A DNA stretch of 28,664 nucleotides, taken from positions 1 to 28,664 of IMG/VR virus record IMGVR_UViG_3300022074_000280; one strand, given 5' to 3'. Under the pieces are notes generated by a model. The model did no database searches and was not told where the DNA came from. It worked only from the letters and a program-made list of their open reading frames with translations. Shown here one piece after another: positions 3,527 through 28,664 of this stretch (position 1 is the stretch's first letter; every line of letters starts with the position of its first letter). Made by a program: the position numbers and the translations under genes. This DNA is from a virus.

Positions 3527-4119
3527 TTTTTCCCCAATACAACATTTTTGAGAACTTTTTTATAACGAAATACATCTATATGTAGGAAGGGAGAATATTT
3601 TCTCATTCTCAAACTTACGGTTTCCCACACAGGGTCTTGAATATTTTTATCAAACTCCTGACGGAATCCAAATATTTTATCCAAAATAACCATCGTCTCG
3701 ATGGAAGTATCCCCACTTAAATAACTTTTCAAGATAAGTGGATGACCTTTCTTACTTACAAATACCCTATCAATATCTTTGGAATCAAAAATATTTTCTA
3801 CTTCTTCTTTAAAAATATAAGAAAGTGATTGTGTTCTTTTTTTCCAATCAGTATACCTATCTTCGCCTTCACGGATCATTTCTCCTATCCAAAGCTTACT
3901 TGGATCAGTGCAGGTAATAAAATTTGAAATAAAAAATTCTTCTACTTCTTTATCTTTTTTGTTTCTTGCTAGTTTTTCAAACCAAAATCTGTCTTTTCTT
4001 TTATAAAAAGATTGAACAGTTGCTCGACTTTTACCACAGTATTTGTGATAATCATACTTGTCTTTTGTAAAATGATTTTTCATTGACAAGTAACATTTAT
4101 AAGCATCAAAGGGCATCAT
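3523..4119 (-). CDS. gp59: Loader of replicative helicase, gp59
   Basis: A 198-residue all-helical protein matching T4 gp59 in length (217 aa) and pattern: a start like AYKCYLSMKNHFTKDKYDYH, the basic KRKDRFWFEKLARNKKD segment, a central FISN motif and a C-terminal region with DPVWETVSLRMRKY. In T4 it binds fork DNA and gp32 and loads the gp41 helicase. Its position directly after gp33 and close to gp32 is the standard T4-like arrangement. Two ATGs in tandem (4119 and 4116) leave the start ambiguous by one codon. Confidence 0.88.
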   Translation of the reverse strand: MMPFDAYKCYLSMKNHFTKDKYDYHKYCGKSRATVQSFYKRKDRFWFEKLARNKKDKEVEEFFISNFITCTDPSKLWIGEMIREGEDRYTDWKKRTQSLSYIFKEEVENIFDSKDIDRVFVSKKGHPLILKSYLSGDTSIETMVILDKIFGFRQEFDKNIQDPVWETVSLRMRKYSPFLHIDVFRYKKVLKNVVLGKK

Positions 4120-6081: not shown

Positions 6082-6735
6082 TTAGATCGCCCATTCCATC
6101 GCTTCAGCGACTGCAGGAAACTGTTCACAAAAGATTTTCTTACATCCAATGGCAATGTCCATGTGCTCCTTCTGTGTGCCGTTAGCAGAACGCAATTCAA
6201 TATAATGTATCCAAGACCTTACAGAACCTGTCATATACATCCTTGTAGGCGTTGCTAGGGGCAATACAAAACGAGCACACTCCTTTGCCACTCCTCTTCC
6301 AAGCATCTGTTCATACAGTGCCATAGAAGAATCAAAAAGAGTCTGCATTTGCATTTCTAAATTTTGAATCGTAAAAGGATCCAGGTCATCAATCGAGTTC
6401 TGACGGTTGTCTGTGTCTTGTCTACGGAGTGCCGGTAGAGGGATCGTCTTACCCAGTAAGGAGGAATCAGCATAGCGTTGTGAAAACTCCTGGAATGTGA
6501 AAGATCTATGTCGCAAAATTTGCGCTGCCAGTCCTCTAGTAGTATTGATCTCAAGCGTCATGGTAGCTTGTTCAAAGATGCTCCAGTGTTGATGCTTTAC
6601 ACAATACCTCAGAAGACCCGAAAACTTTTCGTTATTTTGATTATTAGGATTACTTACACGGGCACAATATGCCATGTGCTTCTCTGCATCAGGTGTTACA
6701 CTGACAAGTTTAATCGGGGTATCCATCGTCATCAT
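6082..6735 (-). CDS. thyX: Flavin-dependent thymidylate synthase ThyX
   Basis: A 217-residue FAD-dependent enzyme that makes dTMP from dUMP with methylene-tetrahydrofolate and NADPH. The ThyX signature RHR-x7-S is complete: R75-H76-R77 to S85 in RHRSFTFQEFSQRY. HWSIFEQ (50-56) and the C-terminal RSWIHYIELRSANGTQKEH also fit the family. It feeds phage DNA synthesis and so belongs with the NADPH-producing operon further along. The start may be ATG 6735 or the in-frame ATG at 6726; either way it overlaps the upstream gene. Confidence 0.96.
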   Translation of the reverse strand: MMTMDTPIKLVSVTPDAEKHMAYCARVSNPNNQNNEKFSGLLRYCVKHQHWSIFEQATMTLEINTTRGLAAQILRHRSFTFQEFSQRYADSSLLGKTIPLPALRRQDTDNRQNSIDDLDPFTIQNLEMQMQTLFDSSMALYEQMLGRGVAKECARFVLPLATPTRMYMTGSVRSWIHYIELRSANGTQKEHMDIAIGCKKIFCEQFPAVAEAMEWAI

Positions 6736-6901
6736 TAAAAATTTCGTCGTAGTCAGTTATGTAGTAATCAGCAGGGTCATCGAAATTATCTTGCTTTGTG
6801 GTATATGCATCCACGTCAGAATAAACTTCTGACTTTAAACATTCTACCAGGGACTCAAGATTTCTGACAATCAGTTTGAGTTTCTCCTTGTCCATAGGCA
6901 T
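6710..6901 (-). CDS. Small acidic protein upstream of thyX
   Basis: A 63-residue protein with a helical N-terminal half (KEKLKLIVRNLESLVECLKS) and a very acidic C-terminus rich in Asp and Tyr. It overlaps the start of thyX by about 26 bp, indicating coupled translation. It is the first gene after the terminator-embedded promoter at 6917-6945. No known family is recognised. Confidence 0.7.
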   Translation of the reverse strand: MPMDKEKLKLIVRNLESLVECLKSEVYSDVDAYTTKQDNFDDPADYYITDYDEIFNDDDGYPD

Positions 6902-6916
6902 AATATACTTGAACTA

Positions 6917-6945
6917 ATTATACACAAAAAAAGGCGGGTAGTCAA
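6917..6945 (-). promoter_or_regulatory. Sigma-70-type promoter embedded in a terminator
   Basis: TTGACT (6940-6945) and a perfect TATAAT (6917-6922) are separated by exactly 17 nt. The -35 box is the loop of the terminator hairpin plus one base of its arm, and the 17-nt spacer consists of the terminator's 3' arm, its U-tract and GTG. Transcription would start near 6910, just ahead of the small gene at 6901 and thyX. Confidence 0.85.
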
Positions 6946-6951
6946 CCCGCC
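6926..6951 (-). terminator. Rho-independent terminator after the 61-residue gene
   Basis: On the minus strand a perfect 7-bp stem GGCGGGT/ACCCGCC with a 5-nt loop is followed by seven T. It lies 11 nt after the stop of the gene at 6962-7147. Its loop doubles as the -35 box of the next promoter. Confidence 0.92.
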
Positions 6952-6961
6952 TTAGAAAGAT

Positions 6962-7147
6962 TTAAACTGCTAAAATCCTCCTACAAATTCTTTTACATGT
7001 TGCCTGATTATCGTCACACTCTATTAAACAATCATAGTAGTCATTTATAAGATCGGATTCTTCGATACTTACATCTAAAGTTTTTTCCAATCTTTTTATA
7101 CTTTCCTTCCATCCCGCTAATTGATTATACGAAATGAGATTATGCAT
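6962..7147 (-). CDS. Small protein of unknown function, 61 aa
   Basis: Starts MHNLISYNQLAGWKESIKRL and is mostly helical, ending in a Cys-containing segment DNQATCKRICRRILAV. I chose ATG 7145-7147 because GGAGG lies 6 nt upstream; an in-frame GTG at 7159 sits on top of that ribosome site and is unlikely. A 130-nt leader without another gene (7148-7277) separates it from the terminator upstream; I see only weak promoter-like boxes and a second AGGAGG in it. Confidence 0.7.
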   Translation of the reverse strand: MHNLISYNQLAGWKESIKRLEKTLDVSIEESDLINDYYDCLIECDDNQATCKRICRRILAV

Positions 7148-7277
7148 GATTTCCTCCACTATATGTTTAGATAATAATGTAGTTGGACTTTCAGTTCACT
7201 GCTGCCTCCTAATTCTATTACTATCTAGACAAGTTTAGGTATCGTAATATACATTTGTTTCAATTTTACATAAGTAT

Positions 7278-7304
7278 AAAAAAAGAGAGGTTTTTAAACC
7301 TCTC
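7278..7304 (-). terminator. Rho-independent terminator of the riboswitch operon
   Basis: A 9-bp perfect stem GAGAGGTTT/AAACCTCTC with a 2-nt loop (probably 4 nt in practice) and seven T after it on the minus strand. The stop codon of the 52-residue gene overlaps its 5' arm. Unlike most other terminators in this window it has no promoter merged with it. Confidence 0.88.
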
Positions 7305-8062: not shown

Positions 8063-8092
8063 ATTATAAACCCTTATACTTTATTTAGTCAA
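8063..8092 (-). promoter_or_regulatory. Sigma-70-type promoter with a dyad over the -10 box and an overlapping CTAAATA
   Basis: TTGACT (8087-8092) and TATAAT (8063-8068) are 18 nt apart. A perfect 7-bp inverted repeat, GGGTTTA/TAAACCC with a 3-nt centre (8057-8073), covers the -10 box. The sequence CTAAATA, a candidate cyanophage late core, overlaps the -35 box (8082-8088). It would drive the 67-residue gene and possibly the riboswitch operon. Confidence 0.72.
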
Positions 8093-10743: not shown

Positions 10744-11062
10744 GACTGTACCTCCATGCATCTTCTAAGATGCCATACAAATAATTTTTAATCTTTCTCG
10801 CCTGTGGTTTAGAAATATGTCCATATCCTTCACGAAGTTGCTTATGCTCATTATCATTACCACCTTTAATATACTCTTGAAGTTCTAAAGTCATATCGCT
10901 AAGTTCAGCAGCAGTTGTACTTTCAATAAATTCCTCTACTTCATATCTTTTTGTTTTACGAATTTGAAGATAATCATAGAACTTCAATACAAATTTTCCT
11001 TCAAAAGCATAATCAATTGCTTTTTCAACATCAGTGTAAATTTCGTGAAGATTGTTTTCCAT
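10703..11062 (-). CDS. Conserved cyanophage protein, 119 aa
   Basis: Starts MENNLHEIYTDVEKAIDYAF. Helical, with a basic C-terminus (KPGRRKKKTK) that suggests nucleic acid contact. The ATG overlaps the glutaredoxin stop (TAATG), so the two are translationally coupled. No known family recognised. Confidence 0.75.
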   Translation of the reverse strand: MENNLHEIYTDVEKAIDYAFEGKFVLKFYDYLQIRKTKRYEVEEFIESTTAAELSDMTLELQEYIKGGNDNEHKQLREGYGHISKPQARKIKNYLYGILEDAWRYSRDRKPGRRKKKTK

Positions 11063-11298
11063 TAAACCAGTTTGTTTTCCCTTAGATACTTTACAGTTTC
11101 CATACATCCGCCGATGTGTTCATTATTTAGAACAACTTGGGGAAATGTAGATCCCACACCAAACTTATGATAAAACTCTTGTCTCGTATAGTCAGTATTA
11201 AGTTTGTATACTACATGTTTTAACTCTGCCAATTGTAGCACCTGTTGAACTTTGGAGCAATAAGGACAACCATCTTTCGAGTATACAGTGAACGTCAT
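11062..11298 (-). CDS. nrdC: Glutaredoxin NrdC
   Basis: A 78-residue glutaredoxin with the classical active site C11-P-Y-C14 in YSKDGCPYCSK, the cis-proline segment TFPQVVLN and the GG before CMETVKYL. T4 NrdC passes electrons to ribonucleotide reductase. The start is ATG 11296-11298, which directly follows the U-tract of the terminator upstream; an upstream ATG-like extension would run through the hairpin. There is no Shine-Dalgarno site, only a U-rich leader of about 20 nt from the promoter at 11326-11354. Confidence 0.92.
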   Translation of the reverse strand: MTFTVYSKDGCPYCSKVQQVLQLAELKHVVYKLNTDYTRQEFYHKFGVGSTFPQVVLNNEHIGGCMETVKYLRENKLV

Positions 11299-11321
11299 AA
11301 AAAAAGAGGGAAATAATTCCC
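11299..11321 (-). terminator. Terminator directly before nrdC
   Basis: On the minus strand GGGAA/TTCCC (11317-11321 with 11308-11312) closes a 4-nt loop and is followed, after CTC, by seven T that run into the nrdC ATG. The 5-bp stem is short. It ends transcripts of the 101-residue gene and lies across the predicted start site of the nrdC promoter. Confidence 0.65.
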
Positions 11322-11325
11322 CCAT

Positions 11326-11354
11326 AGTATATCATATAATTTTTACTATGACAA
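11326..11354 (-). promoter_or_regulatory. nrdC: Sigma-70-type promoter for nrdC, merged with the terminator
   Basis: TTGTCA (11349-11354) and TATACT (11326-11331) are exactly 17 nt apart. The stop of the upstream gene lies in the spacer next to the -35 box. The expected start site, about 11317-11320, is inside the 5' arm of the terminator, so RNA made from this promoter lacks the complete hairpin. Confidence 0.75.
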
Positions 11355-11680: not shown

Positions 11681-13153
11681 TCAGTTAAAAAAGATGTTTT
11701 CACCTACCACAAGACTATCCATATCAGTTAACGAAAGAATTTCCATTGCATTTGATACATGTCCACAGATAGGTTTACCACCAACGTTCAATGATGTATT
11801 TAATACCATAGGAACTCCTGTTAGTTTTTCAAATTCTTCAATCAATTCATAGTAATAAGTATGATCTTGAGAAACAGTTTGTGCCCTACAAGTTCCATCG
11901 GCATGTGTGATAGGAGCAAAAGATTGTTTGTCTATTAACTCCATGACATACAACATGTAAGGTGAGTCGTAAACAAAATTAAAATAATCTCTGGACTTCT
12001 CTTCAAGTATAGATGCTCCGAAGGGTCTGTAAAATTCTCTATGCTTTACCTTACTGTTGATAATATTCTTACCATCTGCAATAGATGGATTCATAAGAAT
12101 ACTTCTGTTACCCAATGCTCTAGGTCCGACCTCACCCTGACCTTGATACCATCCTACAATTTTTCCTTGTGCTAAAAGTTCAGCAGTCTGTTTAATTGTT
12201 CTCTTGGATGGTGGTAATGGTTCTTCATCCTGTTGCCAGAATGGAAACCCAGATGAATCAAACTTCTCTTGATCATAATACTTTCTGAGAAATTCTACTA
12301 GTCCCAATGATAATCCACTATCGTTACAGTGAGGAGGGATAACTAAATTTGGTCTGACATTTCTGATCTCTGAATTGATTACTGTGTTCTGTGCCACACC
12401 ACCACTATAAAATATAACATCAGTCTCGTCTGTATATTCTATAAAATGTTTTACAAATGCACGTTCTGTAATAGTATGTGCAGCACAAACTTTATCACAA
12501 ACATCTTTAAAGTTATGTTTATGCATCCTTGTAAAGTTTGCTGACCTCCAAAGTTTTGATAAGTCAGTTAGGTCACATGAACCAGTGCTAGAATAGTTAC
12601 CAAATGCTTTTAGTGCCATGATTTTACCAGCAAAGTCTAGAGAGTGTCCCTTAATGCCCATCTGATGACCGACATTAGAAAGAATTAATCCAAGACTTTC
12701 AACTTTATCTGCACTATATCTCAGTACAATCTTATCATTTTTAAATACAGTATGACCAGAATAGTCATCACCAAAACCATCGGATACAATTCCTACATCA
12801 GACTCACCAAACATCCAACAACTCAAGTGATGAGCATAGTGATGATCAACTCTGAAGACAGGACAATCAAATCCTAATAATTTAAATAGAGGTATTTCTA
12901 TACTAGAAAATAATTCTTTCTCATCAAATTTAATTTTATCATACGAGAATGAATCAATAGTAATAGCAATAGCATCTACCTCAGATGGATTAATATCCCA
13001 TCTCTTTATGATTTGAAACCACTGATTCAAATCCATGAACCCATGATGTTTAATCTGATAATCTCGTTCAGAATTATAATACTTTACGACAATACCATCG
13101 GTGTAAGTAATATTTGAGTCGTGATCACATAGTCGCAATCCTAAAAATTTCAT
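11681..13153 (-). CDS. Carbamoyltransferase, NodU/CmcH family
   Basis: A 490-residue enzyme that transfers carbamoyl from carbamoyl phosphate to an unknown acceptor. The YrdC-independent Kae1-like N-terminal domain carries the metal motif DHHYAHH (103-109) and the nucleotide loop SGGVAQN (250-256); the C-terminal domain has GWYQGQGEVGPRALG (334-348) and FYRPFGASIL. Such genes occur in several cyanophages, where the substrate may be a surface sugar or a modified nucleoside. GTAGG lies about 6 nt before the ATG. It has its own promoter, which overlaps a terminator at 13162-13214. Confidence 0.9.
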   Translation of the reverse strand: MKFLGLRLCDHDSNITYTDGIVVKYYNSERDYQIKHHGFMDLNQWFQIIKRWDINPSEVDAIAITIDSFSYDKIKFDEKELFSSIEIPLFKLLGFDCPVFRVDHHYAHHLSCWMFGESDVGIVSDGFGDDYSGHTVFKNDKIVLRYSADKVESLGLILSNVGHQMGIKGHSLDFAGKIMALKAFGNYSSTGSCDLTDLSKLWRSANFTRMHKHNFKDVCDKVCAAHTITERAFVKHFIEYTDETDVIFYSGGVAQNTVINSEIRNVRPNLVIPPHCNDSGLSLGLVEFLRKYYDQEKFDSSGFPFWQQDEEPLPPSKRTIKQTAELLAQGKIVGWYQGQGEVGPRALGNRSILMNPSIADGKNIINSKVKHREFYRPFGASILEEKSRDYFNFVYDSPYMLYVMELIDKQSFAPITHADGTCRAQTVSQDHTYYYELIEEFEKLTGVPMVLNTSLNVGGKPICGHVSNAMEILSLTDMDSLVVGENIFFN

Positions 13154-13161
13154 ATACCTAC

Positions 13162-13185
13162 AAAAAAGAGGATCCTAAGACCCTC
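13162..13185 (-). terminator. Terminator of the photosynthesis and carbon operon
   Basis: Minus strand: GAGGGTC/GATCCTC with one G-T pair and a 4-nt loop (13168-13185), then six T. It follows the stop of the 72-residue gene by 6 nt and ends the operon that begins at petE. Confidence 0.8.
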
Positions 13186-13214
13186 AGTATATCAATCATT
13201 ATCTTGTTTGTAAA
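13186..13214 (-). promoter_or_regulatory. Sigma-70-type promoter for the carbamoyltransferase, merged with the terminator
   Basis: TTTACA (13209-13214) and TATACT (13186-13191) are exactly 17 nt apart. The -35 box is inside the end of the 72-residue gene, and the -10 box touches the first base of the terminator's 5' arm (13185). The expected start site, about 13179, is at the inner end of that arm, so RNA from this promoter would not form the hairpin. Confidence 0.72.
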
Positions 13215-19410: not shown

Positions 19411-19836
19411 TCATTTACTATAGGTATCATAACCCTTTTCATCATCACTTTTCTTTAACTCAGCAGCAAGTTCTTTTTCACTTTTAAGATGATGTCCCTT
19501 AAGATCAGGATTAGGTTGTGATTTAGTCAGATCCCTACGATCTTGATTTTTAATAATGATGAAAGCATCTTTATTGTACTTACGAGTACCGTATGGTGCT
19601 GACCATTTTTTGTTATAGTTTTCACCTTGATGAATACCTGAGACTTGAGTGCCACCAATTTCAACAGTGACATTATCATAACAATCCCAACCAAGTTCTG
19701 AGATTACATCATACAGTTTTTGAACTACACCGTGATTGCATACTGCAATTGCTTTACGTTTTGCTGCTAGATGATTTTCTAGTTGTGCTCTATCTTCTGC
19801 CAGCACGCGCTCTTCTGGTTCAAGATTTCCATTCAT
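19411..19836 (-). CDS. Conserved cyanophage protein between psbA and petE, 141 aa
   Basis: Starts MNGNLEPEERVLAEDRAQLE. Helical N-terminal part, then a sheet-like region with VTVEIGGTQVSGIHQGENYN and a Lys-rich end with KGHHLKSEKELAAELKKSDD. It has its own promoter in the terminator after psbA. No family is recognised. Confidence 0.75.
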   Translation of the reverse strand: MNGNLEPEERVLAEDRAQLENHLAAKRKAIAVCNHGVVQKLYDVISELGWDCYDNVTVEIGGTQVSGIHQGENYNKKWSAPYGTRKYNKDAFIIIKNQDRRDLTKSQPNPDLKGHHLKSEKELAAELKKSDDEKGYDTYSK

Positions 19837-19861: not shown

Positions 19862-19890
19862 ATTATAGCATAAAAAAAGAGACCCGTGAA
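19862..19890 (-). promoter_or_regulatory. Promoter with its -35 position in the terminator loop
   Basis: A perfect TATAAT (19862-19867) lies exactly 17 nt from the 6-nt loop of the terminator, TTCACG (19885-19890). The loop matches the -35 consensus at four of six bases only, but the geometry equals that at 27786-27814 and 6917-6945. Transcription would begin near 19855, giving a leader of about 20 nt. Confidence 0.65.
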
Positions 19891-19896
19891 GGTCTC
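19872..19896 (-). terminator. psbA: Rho-independent terminator after psbA
   Basis: Minus strand: GAGACC/GGTCTC with a 6-nt loop, followed by CTTTTTTT-type U-tract of seven T. It starts 25 nt after the psbA stop. Because the flanking bases are also A/T rich on the other side, it may work weakly in both directions. Confidence 0.88.
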
Positions 19897-19920: not shown

Positions 19921-20997
19921 TCAACCGATTGCAGGTGCGGTAAGTGCCACAGGAGTGGACTCAGCAGCAGCAAGGTCGAGTGGGAAGTTGTGAGCGTTGC
20001 GCTCATGCATAACTTCCATGCCCAGACCAGCGCGGTTAAGAACGTCTGCCCAGGTGTTGATCACTTTACCTTGACCATCGATGATGGACTGGTTGAAGTT
20101 GAAACCGTTCAGGTTGAACGCCATCGTAGAAACACCAAGTGCGGTGAACCAGATGCCAACAACAGGCCATGCAGCAAGGAAGAAGTGCAGGGAACGGGAG
20201 TTGTTGAAAGAAGCGTATTGGAAGATCAGGCGACCGAAGTAACCGTGAGCGGCGACGATGTTGTAGGTCTCTTCTTCTTGACCAAACTTGTAACCATAGT
20301 TCTGGGACTCGGTTTCGGTGGTTTCACGAACCAGCGAAGAAGTAACCAGTGAACCGTGCATTGCGGAGAACAGTGAACCGCCGAAGACACCTGCGACGCC
20401 CAGCATGTGGAAGGGGTGCATCAGGATGTTGTGCTCTGCTTGGAAGACCAGCATGTAGTTGAATGTACCAGAGATACCCAAGGGCATCGCATCAGAGAAA
20501 GAACCTTGACCGAAAGGATAGACCAAGAACACTGCACTCGCTGCAGCAACAGGTGCCGAGTAGGCAACACAGATCCAGGGACGCATACCCAGGCGGTAAG
20601 ACAGTTCCCACTCACGACCCATATAGGCGTAGATGCCGATGAGGAAGTGGAACACTACAAGTTGGAAAGGACCACCGTTATACAGCCACTCGTCGAGCGA
20701 TGCGGCTTCCCAGATGGGATAGAAGTGAAGACCAATTGCGTTGGAAGAGGGAACAACTGCACCAGAGATGATGTTGTTACCGTACATGAGTGAACCTGCT
20801 ACGGGTTCACGGATGCCGTCGATGTCCACAGGAGGAGCAGCGACGAAGGCGACGATGAAGCAGATAGTTGCTGCCAACAGAGTTGGGATCATCAGTACGC
20901 CGAACCAACCGACATAGAGGCGGTTATTGGTAGAAGTTACCCACTCGCAGAAATTATCCCAAGTGGATGTTTGTTGTCTTGAAAGAGTTGAAGCCAT
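19921..20997 (-). CDS. psbA: Photosystem II D1 protein, high-light type
   Basis: A 358-residue, uninterrupted D1 protein; numbering is one less than in standard D1. Tyr160 (Tyr-Z), His189, His197 and the manganese-cluster ligands D169, E188, H331, E332, H336, D341 and the C-terminal A343 are all present, followed by the 15-residue processed tail. Glu129 and Ser211 (standard 130 and 212) mark the high-light isoform. No group I intron is present, unlike S-PM2. The base composition is richer in G and C than its neighbours. Expression is likely from both early and late promoters at 21159-21192. Confidence 0.99.
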
Positions 20998-26234: not shown

Positions 26235-26625
26235 GGAAATTTTCTGATCCTCCCTGGAAGTTTTCAGATCCACCAACAGGATCTAATTGAAGCGTAGTTG
26301 CAGAACTTTTAGTTGCAATTTCATACATTAATTGATGAATATTATCAGGTTCTCCTTTACCAACTTCCTGTGCTTGCTGCTGCTTGATAAAAGTTTCTTG
26401 CTCAATATAATCAAGTTGTTTTTGGGAACGTGCAGGAGCAGGTCCAAACCAAGGATCATCTTCAAGATAGACAGGTGCAGGAACGCCAGTGTAATAATTC
26501 AGAGCATCTTGTTTAAATGCTTCACCTTCGCATTCTACAATCTGCTCATCAATAGCACACTGTATTTGATCTTCAGTGATTTTTCTTTTTGGTTCTAATA
26601 GAGTCTTAATTGCTTTAATAATCAT
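26227..26625 (-). CDS. Conserved phage protein with a C-terminal GGSENF repeat
   Basis: A 132-residue, mostly acidic protein starting MIIKAIKTLLEPKRKITEDQ, with YTGVPAPVYLEDDPWFGPAP in the middle and a tandem GGSENFQ-GGSENFHE at the end. The DNA repeats are close but not identical. Its ATG overlaps the hydrolase stop (ATGA). Function unknown; the Pro-rich middle and the operon hint at a structural or lysis-associated role. Confidence 0.75.
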   Translation of the reverse strand: MIIKAIKTLLEPKRKITEDQIQCAIDEQIVECEGEAFKQDALNYYTGVPAPVYLEDDPWFGPAPARSQKQLDYIEQETFIKQQQAQEVGKGEPDNIHQLMYEIATKSSATTLQLDPVGGSENFQGGSENFHE

Positions 26626-27032
26626 TGCCAGTGATAATGGTAGAAATTTCCGTTTGAACTACACATAGGATCCTCCGATGGAACCCTGTGCCTAAGCATA
26701 GATTGTCCTTTAAAATCTGTTCTGTTTCCTATGATGCTATATGCTTTTAATATGTTTTTTCTTCCTTCTAGGGAGTTTAATTTGTTTACCAGCACCCAAT
26801 CTGTTTTAGGATATTTGGAATCAAATCCTTGATACTGATGTTGACCTCTACTACTCTTTGCATGAACAACTTCATGCACACTGTTAGGGAACACCTTAGA
26901 ATTGACTCTATTAAGAACAGAGGCAGCGACACAATACTCGTCGAAGGTATTCCCAACTGCTTCTACGCGAATTACTTTAGCAAGATAGGTATAATCAAGT
27001 GGTGTTAAAGATAGTAGCAGTTCTAGAAACAT
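26622..27032 (-). CDS. SleB-like cell-wall hydrolase
   Basis: A 136-residue hydrolase of the SleB (Hydrolase_2) family. YLAKVIRVEAVGNTFDEYCV holds the catalytic Glu (E24); VAASVLNRVNSKVFPNSVHE and VVHAKSSRGQHQYQGFD are the conserved core. Such enzymes cut peptidoglycan, and this is the likely endolysin or a related muramidase of the block. The ATG directly follows the U-tract of a terminator, with no Shine-Dalgarno site, as in nrdC. The promoter is at 27064-27092. Confidence 0.85.
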   Translation of the reverse strand: MFLELLLSLTPLDYTYLAKVIRVEAVGNTFDEYCVAASVLNRVNSKVFPNSVHEVVHAKSSRGQHQYQGFDSKYPKTDWVLVNKLNSLEGRKNILKAYSIIGNRTDFKGQSMLRHRVPSEDPMCSSNGNFYHYHWQ

Positions 27033-27033
27033 A

Positions 27034-27062
27034 TAAAAAAAGAGGTCTTTTCTTAGACCTCT
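27034..27062 (-). terminator. Terminator of the hli cassette
   Basis: Minus strand: AGAGGTCT/AGACCTCT (8 bp, 9 with the flanking A-T pair) with a 6-nt loop and seven T ending 2 nt before the hydrolase ATG. It comes 27 nt after the stop of the 42-residue gene. Confidence 0.88.
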
Positions 27063-27063
27063 T

Positions 27064-27092
27064 AATATAGTATACCTATTTAGTTTTTGTCA
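27064..27092 (-). promoter_or_regulatory. Sigma-70-type promoter for the hydrolase operon, merged with the terminator
   Basis: TTGACA (27087-27092) overlaps the stop codon TGA of the 42-residue gene; TATATT (27064-27069) is 17 nt from it. The -10 box sits within 1-2 nt of the terminator's 5' arm (27055-27063), and the expected start site, about 27057, is inside that arm. The resulting RNA loses most of the hairpin. Confidence 0.72.
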
Positions 27093-27218
27093 AGAGGGTG
27101 ATGGTGAATATACTGGTGTCATCATCCCTCCATCTGGACCGTCATCATCATCAACATCATCACTCAATAGGGCAGCAAATATAAACCCTCCTAACATGGA
27201 CGCTGCTATGAGTAACAT
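27090..27218 (-). CDS. Small membrane protein of the hli cassette, 42 aa
   Basis: Starts MLLIAASMLGGFIFAALLSD with one hydrophobic helix, followed by an Asp-rich stretch and a Gly/Met/Pro end. It begins 5 nt after the stop of the second hli gene. I recall this small protein in many cyanophages. Its stop lies in the -35 box of the next promoter. Confidence 0.72.
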   Translation of the reverse strand: MLLIAASMLGGFIFAALLSDDVDDDDGPDGGMMTPVYSPSPS

Positions 27219-27540: not shown

Positions 27541-27759
27541 TCAGAATCCGAAAACACCAAAGAAAAATACACTACCAGTAGTAGCATAGCTGACAATAGC
27601 AGCAACAAATCCAAGCATAGCAGTGCGTCCATTTAATTTCTCCGCACGTTCTGCGTAGGTCTCGTAACCATAACGCTCAGCGTCAGACTTGGAGACATAC
27701 ATTTGTGGCTCTTTAGCGAACAAATTTTGTTGCCCTAATTCATTTGTCGTTACAGTCAT
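27541..27759 (-). CDS. hli: High-light-inducible protein, 72 aa
   Basis: An Hli protein with a long soluble N-terminus (MTVTTNELGQQNLFAKEPQM and SKSDAERYGYETYAERAEKL) and one membrane helix carrying the complete chlorophyll-binding motif EKLNGRTAMLGF. Cyanophage Hli proteins dissipate excess light energy and stabilise PSII. It is the first gene after the promoter in the pstS terminator. Confidence 0.94.
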   Translation of the reverse strand: MTVTTNELGQQNLFAKEPQMYVSKSDAERYGYETYAERAEKLNGRTAMLGFVAAIVSYATTGSVFFFGVFGF

Positions 27760-27785: not shown

Positions 27786-27814
27786 AGTATATAGTAAAAA
27801 AGCACCCCTGTCAA
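27786..27814 (-). promoter_or_regulatory. hli: Sigma-70-type promoter whose -35 box is the terminator loop
   Basis: The 6-nt loop of the pstS terminator is exactly TTGACA (27809-27814), a perfect -35 box. TATACT (27786-27791) follows after a 17-nt spacer made of the 3' arm, the U-tract and four more bases. Transcription of hli would begin near 27779. Confidence 0.88.
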
Positions 27815-27821
27815 GGGGTGC
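27796..27821 (-). terminator. pstS: Rho-independent terminator of pstS
   Basis: Minus strand: a perfect 7-bp stem GCACCCC/GGGGTGC closing the loop TTGACA, then six T. It begins 23 nt after the pstS stop. Confidence 0.93.
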
Positions 27822-27843
27822 TGTGTAGTGATTTATACTTATA

Positions 27844-28664
27844 TCACTTAATAGTGTCAACAGCAGCAAGAGATTTCTGTCGAAGAGACTCTGGAAGAGG
27901 TACATATCCCAAAGAATCTGAAACCGCTTGCGACTTTTCACTCAGCATATAACGAAAAGTTTCCTTGACTCCAGGAGCGGACTCAGGATAGGCAAGGATC
28001 CATGTTAGAGATACGATTGGGTAAGCATTCGCACCTGCAGGGTTAGGATCTGCCCCACGAAGTTTATCGTCTAATACAATCTTGGCAAGTCCAGCAGCAG
28101 ATGTTTTTGCATTTGCCTTTACAAAGTTGCCTGCCTTATTCTGAAGAGCAACCTGTTGGAACTTACCACCGTTCACATAACCATAGTTCAGATAACCGAT
28201 AGCACCGACCTGGTTCTTGATAACACCGGCAACACCAGAGTTACCTTTACCACCAACACCAACAGGCCACTGGACAGACTTACCAGTTCCTACAGTCTTC
28301 TTCCACTCGGGAGAGAAAGCAGACAGGGAGTTGGTGAAACCTTTGGTAGTACCAGAACCATCAGAACGATGAACAGTTAAGATGTTCTTATCAGCACAAC
28401 CAAAGGTGCTCCAGTTTGTAATCTTACCAAGGAAGACATCAGCAAGTTGCGTCTGAGTCATCTTTACATAACAATCAGGATAGTTGTAAGCAGGAACGAT
28501 GGCACCACCAGTCATGGGGATGTGAACCATGGGTAGTTTCTGCTTCTTATCACTTACTGCACCATCAGAGGCACCAAAGTCAACAGTCTTGGCATGATAC
28601 TGACGGACACCAGCACCACTACCAACTGCTTGATAGTTCACTTGGTTTCCAGTCTCCTTTGCCA
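27844..28664 (-). CDS. pstS: Periplasmic phosphate-binding protein PstS, 5' end outside the window
   Basis: The last 272 codons of PstS, the substrate-binding part of the high-affinity phosphate ABC importer. The frame stays open to the window edge, so the true start and signal peptide are missing. Family motifs: YQAVGSGAGVRQY, TVDFGASDGAV (phosphate-binding Ser and Asp), VHRSDGSGTTKGFT and NQVGAIGYLNYGYV. In phages it probably raises phosphate uptake during infection. It ends at a terminator shared with the hli promoter. Confidence 0.95.
   Translation of the reverse strand, partial: AKETGNQVNYQAVGSGAGVRQYHAKTVDFGASDGAVSDKKQKLPMVHIPMTGGAIVPAYNYPDCYVKMTQTQLADVFLGKITNWSTFGCADKNILTVHRSDGSGTTKGFTNSLSAFSPEWKKTVGTGKSVQWPVGVGGKGNSGVAGVIKNQVGAIGYLNYGYVNGGKFQQVALQNKAGNFVKANAKTSAAGLAKIVLDDKLRGADPNPAGANAYPIVSLTWILAYPESAPGVKETFRYMLSEKSQAVSDSLGYVPLPESLRQKSLAAVDTIK

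Follow-up and report, generated by a model that had tools for sequence, protein, structure and literature searches.

Promoter-early stem-loops (PeSLs) of T4-like phages have reportedly been described by Arbiol et al. in 2010 and by Comeau et al. in 2014, as cited in PMC4503421 and PMC5931544. According to work cited in PMC4503421 they are composite promoter-terminator motifs of T4-like phages that mediate the shuffling of modules. In S-PM2, Puxty et al. found sparse PeSL candidates and doubted a shuffling role there (PMC4503421). For the cyanophage pstS genes, Sullivan et al. 2010 reported predicted promoters and terminators flanking all nine of them, with no single regulatory solution; an overlap of promoter and terminator, or a defined geometry, is not described in the passages of that paper on the same pstS junction that we found (PMC3037559). 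Promoter/stem-loop composites are already known in T4-like phages, and the two layouts with unrelated copies presented here have apparently been little described.

The window, i.e. the whole stretch of virus DNA analyzed here (28,664 bases), is T4-like myovirus DNA and matches members of the Kyanoviridae. Among annotated genomes it is closest to T4-like cyanophages, e.g. the Synechococcus phages Bellamy and S-SM2 (~80% identity). Like the PeSLs, its elements join a sigma70-like promoter and a stem-loop terminator in one intergenic cassette of a T4-like myovirus. They do so in two layouts, referred to as class A and class B.

In the class A layout the hairpin loop carries the -35 box, the 3' arm together with the U-tract forms a 17-nt spacer, and the -10 box follows directly. 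Three such sites had been listed in an earlier note on this DNA. All three are present on the minus strand with a spacer of 17 nt each, and the genes flanking them are all on the minus strand as well. The first element (27786-27821, minus strand) is located between a pstS-like gene upstream (27844-28641) and an hli gene downstream (27541-27759). Its hairpin (27802-27821) is followed by a T6 tract, and its promoter is composed of TTGACA (27809-27814), the 17-nt spacer and TATACT (27786-27791) with a predicted start at ~27779. The second element (6917-6951, minus strand) lies between two ORFs of small phage families, phrog_665 upstream (6962-7159) and phrog_878 downstream (6710-6901). It comprises a hairpin at 6933-6951 with a T7 tract, and TTGACT (6940-6945) and TATAAT (6917-6922) at a spacing of 17 nt; its predicted start is at ~6910. 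The third element (19862-19896, minus strand), between psbA (19921-20997, upstream) and an ORF of phrog_475 (19411-19836, downstream), is weak. Its hairpin (19879-19896) has a T7 tract, and a -35-like TTCACG (19885-19890) is separated by 17 nt from TATAAT (19862-19867). The first two promoters match TTGACA/TATAAT at 11/12 positions and the third at 10/12. Since TTCACG matches the -35 consensus at just 4/6 positions, the promoter case at the third site rests on the extended -10 box TGCTATAAT (TGC-TATAAT). The three copies claimed earlier thus amount to two strong ones and a weak one. In relatives, a plain UUCG loop often takes the place of this -35 box at the same psbA junction.

The elements show the characteristics of intrinsic terminators, namely a stable G+C-rich hairpin, a U-tract directly 3' of it and a position after a gene end. 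The calculated folding energies of the hairpins at 27786, 6917 and 19862 are -15.9, -16.1 and -13.1 kcal/mol, respectively (z -3.9 to -5.1). In the folded RNA of the 27786 site a U-A pair closes a loop of UGAC; the -35 hexamer therefore corresponds to the loop plus its closing pair, which corrects the former description of the loop as exactly TTGACA. The hexamers of the window sites are spaced by 16-18 nt, as is typical of sigma70-type promoters. The stems of the window copies differ completely in sequence, in agreement with the proposal that the geometry is kept while the sequence varies. Stems are likewise unrelated among the copies within the P-SSM2 genome, and we rejected the idea that the elements are copies of one repeat because the stems differ in both cases. 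An apparent class A match at 3690 was discounted, as it lies inside a gene and has a weak hairpin. The 3' end of pstS is overlapped by a further promoter-like pair (TTGACA-17-TATAAA, 27832-27860, minus strand), which lies a short distance upstream of the hairpin of the class A element at 27786-27821. RNA from this pair would include the whole class A hairpin, and the TATAAAT within it is also similar to a T4 late promoter.

In the class B layout the -10 box ends 0-3 nt before the hairpin, which places the predicted start within the 5' arm or shortly past it. The window contains three of these elements, all on the minus strand, so the original count of three fused terminators was too low. The element at 27042-27093 consists of TTGACA (27088-27093), an 18-nt spacer, TATATT (27064-27069) and a hairpin (27042-27061) with a T7 tract; the next gene is an endolysin-like ORF (26622-27032). 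The element at 13168-13214 is located upstream of a carbamoyltransferase ORF (11681-13153) and is composed of TTTACA (13209-13214), 17 nt, TATACT (13186-13191) and a hairpin (13168-13185) with a T6 tract. The third one (11306-11354) has TTGTCA (11349-11354), again a spacer of 17 nt, TATACT (11326-11331) and a hairpin (11306-11323) whose T7 tract is directly followed by an ATG. The mechanically called glutaredoxin-like ORF (11062-11325) begins at an earlier ATG inside this element. Of the seven intergenic minus-strand terminators in the window, six have a promoter fused to them in the class A or the class B layout. The exception at 7285-7304 (minus strand) is the sole clear intergenic terminator in the window without a promoter in either layout.

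In class B elements the start codon typically stands directly after the U-tract. The leaders are short and leave little room for a ribosome-binding site. At several class B junctions the -35 box is built from the end of the upstream gene, either from the psbA stop (GGT TGA TA) or from the last pstS codons (GTT GAC A). Of 63 non-redundant class B spacers, 11 contain a late-promoter-like word, NT(A/G)AATA, which occupies one position in 6 of them; in class A the count is 0 of 67. This difference is suggestive only. Elsewhere in the window (8063-8092, minus strand), TTGACTAAATA or TTGACTATATA is followed by TATAAT, and the -35 box overlaps a late-promoter-like word. Similar words are found in Bellamy, S-SM2, Syn9, P-SSM2 and S-PM2; possibly this is a dual early/late promoter.

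We compared these layouts with the non-cyanophage relatives T4, RB49, RB43 and KVP40. In RB49 a T-tract hairpin lies wholly upstream of the -35 box at ~9 places, whereas in class A the -35 box is at the loop and the U-tract is part of the spacer. At 12 further places of RB49 a perfect hairpin without a T-tract, TTGACGGGGATCGGGAGATCCCCTATAAT, fills the spacer between -35 and -10, in contrast to class B with its predicted start in the hairpin. Some promoters of RB49 and T4 have an inverted repeat centered on the -10 box. A KVP40 promoter hairpin (GGGTTGAC...GTCAGCCC-TTTC-...TATTAT, five near-identical places) resembles class A in its distance from the -10 box and in overlapping the -35 box. Here, however, the -35 box belongs to the stem, as part of its 5' arm, the hairpin is followed by a poor T-tract (TTTC), and all copies have a common sequence. 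The cyanophage copies in the window and in P-SSM2 are not similar in sequence, unlike the RB49 and KVP40 composites, and so lack the homologous joint that characterizes PeSLs. Because copies within one cyanophage genome share no sequence, we did not file the elements as PeSLs.

In the real window 8 terminators were detected, of which 4 scored as class A (including the discounted match at 3690) and 3 as class B. A set of 100 dinucleotide shuffles of the window contained no fused element of either class, with an average of 0.16 terminators. The wider cyanophage sample comprised 160 loci around psbA and pstS as well as the whole genomes of Bellamy, S-SM2, S-PM2, Syn9 and P-SSM2. As a check on its reading, the earlier note had asked whether terminator loops contain TTGAC more often than controls do, and this check was strongly positive: TTGAC is at the loop of 47 out of 381 distinct terminators (1.93 Mb of cyanophage DNA) compared to a mean of 2.7 over 60 anagrams, a value that is inflated by the overlapping CTTGA and drops to 1.2 once overlapping anagrams are removed. 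In a less biased cyanophage set of 475 terminators, a -35 box at the loop and a downstream -10 box co-occur with an odds ratio of 9.8 (Fisher p = 9e-18), and with an odds ratio of 5.3 (p = 3e-6) after de-replication. The class A spacer is exactly 17 nt in 54 of 67 non-redundant elements. Classes A and B account for 149 of the 475 terminators, i.e. most cyanophage terminators are unfused; 24 non-redundant terminators carry a -35 box at the loop and no recognizable -10 box.

When strong promoters are plotted relative to terminators, they cluster in two sharp peaks corresponding to class A and class B, with sparse matches elsewhere. Viewed from 813 promoters, T-tract hairpins are found 58 times at the distance of class A and 68 times at that of class B, against ~1 per 5-nt bin elsewhere. 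Class A promoters are on the terminator's own strand in 41 cases and antisense in 7. When viral contigs were scanned for TTGAC, T6 and TATAAT, a hairpin loop was present in 45 of the 121 distinct matches listed, all with spacers of 16-18 nt, compared to 9 of 111 matches listed for the scrambled-motif control. Most of the hairpin matches in this control are TTGTCA -35 boxes, which makes the anagram TGTCA an imperfect control. The class B scan (promoter plus T6ATG) gave a hairpin in 37 of 110 matches listed and in 0 of 114 when A6 replaced T6. In 36 of these 37 listed hairpin matches the 5' arm ends 5-9 nt past the -10 box, which is the expected start position. A null model with permuted -35 boxes on the metagenomic set had a mean of 12.5 and a maximum of 56 compared to 66 observed. 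This null is noisy, probably because certain permutations are similar to frequent loops or to displaced -35 boxes, and we therefore relied on the anagram and contingency tests.

TTGAC-loop terminators were absent from the 129 cyanobacterial terminators and from those of KVP40 (64), RB43 (39), RB49 (38) and T4 (18). The cyanobacterial set was taken from 80 loci (1.4 Mb around psbA), with two apparent misbinned phage contigs excluded. We rejected a host origin of the layout, as no TTGAC-loop terminator was present in this DNA. Two contigs with psbA, one assigned to a Euryarchaeota MAG and the other to a Gammaproteobacteria MAG, seem to be cyanophage DNA that was misbinned. Protein similarity classifies 39 of the 45 loci with a hairpin among the matches listed in the class A scan as cyanophage-like, compared to 34 of 75 non-hairpin loci; in the class B scan the corresponding numbers among the matches listed are 34 of 37 and 35 of 83. 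These comparisons show a concentration of the predicted fused elements in cyanophage-like T4 relatives. In the whole genome of Syn9, no clear class A element was observed.

The pstS junction, with 61 distinct cases, has 18 class A and 20 class B elements, one that scores as both, 7 terminators only and 15 cases with none detected. In 3 of the 7 terminator-only cases a TTGACA...TATAAT promoter is located just past the U-tract. At the psbA junction (74 cases) plain terminators prevail with 41 cases, many of which have UUCG-type loops; class A and class B account for 5 and 7 cases, respectively. As the layouts vary among phages at both junctions, these terminators are not invariably fused to a promoter. 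Fusion seems to occur where a new transcription unit would begin. The genes downstream of class A elements belong to 47 families and those downstream of class B elements to 43, with 9 common to both (pattern-scan loci included). For 12 class A elements, most of them from the pstS junction, stem covariation was analyzed. Double changes were found in 5 of 7 pairs, and the covariation score was 0.749 compared to 0.253 after shuffling; 0 of 500 shuffles reached the observed score. Invariant in these 12 elements are TTGAC, most of the U-tract and TATA.

Based on these data we propose that class A and class B are dual-use punctuation elements, i.e. insulated promoters, of T4-like cyanophages, a reading to which we assign a probability of roughly three in four. 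A polymerase coming from the upstream gene would transcribe the G+C-rich hairpin and the U-tract and would be expected to stop there, and the same DNA would also serve the next gene as a sigma70-type host promoter. Cyanobacterial sigma70 promoters start 6-8 nt past the -10 box according to a cyanophage study (PMC5780444). With such a start the element's own RNA would contain none of the hairpin 5' arm in class A; in class B, initiation would take place in or just past the 5' arm and most of it would be missing. As the complete hairpin could not form in the element's own RNA, the terminator should act on incoming polymerases only. The neighbor would thus be stopped and the next gene started within ~40-50 bp. 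Escape of its own transcript from the hairpin is the simplest account of why just two placements are favored. From the sequences we infer that the hairpins are functional terminators, that the promoters are active with the predicted starts, and that insulation is the selected function. The original idea that one element of ~40 bp ends one unit and starts the next remains plausible from sequence, but class A is one of two layouts that would achieve this.

Alternatively, termination and initiation could be coupled, with the polymerase releasing its RNA at the U-tract, staying on the DNA, rebinding sigma and re-initiating at the fused promoter, so that the upstream unit feeds the downstream one. 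According to single-molecule work, bacterial RNA polymerase can stay on the DNA after hairpin termination, diffuse in one dimension and re-initiate at the nearest promoter (PMC11347151 and references therein). The class A geometry would be well suited to this, with the expected stop just a few nucleotides from the -10 box. Such recycling is like the fused elements in that it connects a terminator with a start at a promoter close by. It is, however, a general long-distance property in vitro, for which a fused DNA element is neither required nor described. Recycling has been reported over up to ~1000 bp and in either orientation (PMC11347151), so it does not require the promoter to overlap the terminator. 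In addition, phages use other layouts at the same junction, and we consider coupling rather doubtful as the reason for the fusion. A related scheme, in which the terminator serves as a landing or re-loading site and a terminated polymerase over the loop -35 promoter relays neighboring host-derived cassettes, with class B as a second solution, also appears unlikely to us.

The composite could also be kept as a homologous joint for module shuffling, as proposed for PeSL recombination cassettes. PeSLs of T4-like phages are reported to mediate shuffling in work cited by PMC4503421. The elements flank host-like genes of variable content between phages, and RB49 and KVP40 have many near-identical copies of their own composites. 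Within a cyanophage genome, however, the unrelated stems leave little homology to recombine on, and Puxty et al. thought PeSL-driven shuffling unlikely in the S-PM2 region they studied (PMC4503421). We thus regard this explanation as quite improbable.

Compared to the insulated promoter, a role of the TTGAC loop in the RNA, by protein binding or as a stable loop with a secondary promoter match, is very improbable. TGAC/TTGAC is indeed the commonest class A loop, and loops of other terminators show structural preferences such as UUCG. TTGAC loops, however, accompany a -10 box at 16-18 nt (54/67 at 17 nt; the Fisher p of 9e-18 given above), terminators without a promoter favor UUCG and GAAA loops, and class B reaches the same fusion without a loop motif. 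Chance overlap in A+T-rich, compact intergenic DNA, made easier by the A+T-richness of both T-tracts and TATAAT-like words, is hardly credible and was rejected on the basis of the shuffled windows, the anagram, antisense and A6 controls, the absence of TTGAC-loop terminators from the cyanobacterial, KVP40, RB43, RB49 and T4 sets and the stem covariation at the conserved pstS junction.

The host-derived photosynthesis and nutrient genes of cyanophages, psbA, pstS and hli, are movable cassettes. A stop/start element of ~40 bp that is invisible to its own transcript would, if true, explain how such cassettes can be inserted without disturbing their neighbors. The class A and class B layouts provide simple sequence rules for the annotation of transcription units in hundreds of cyanophage genomes. 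The fused elements also lend themselves to studies of how polymerase is recycled once it has terminated, and they suggest a compact part for cyanobacterial synthetic biology.
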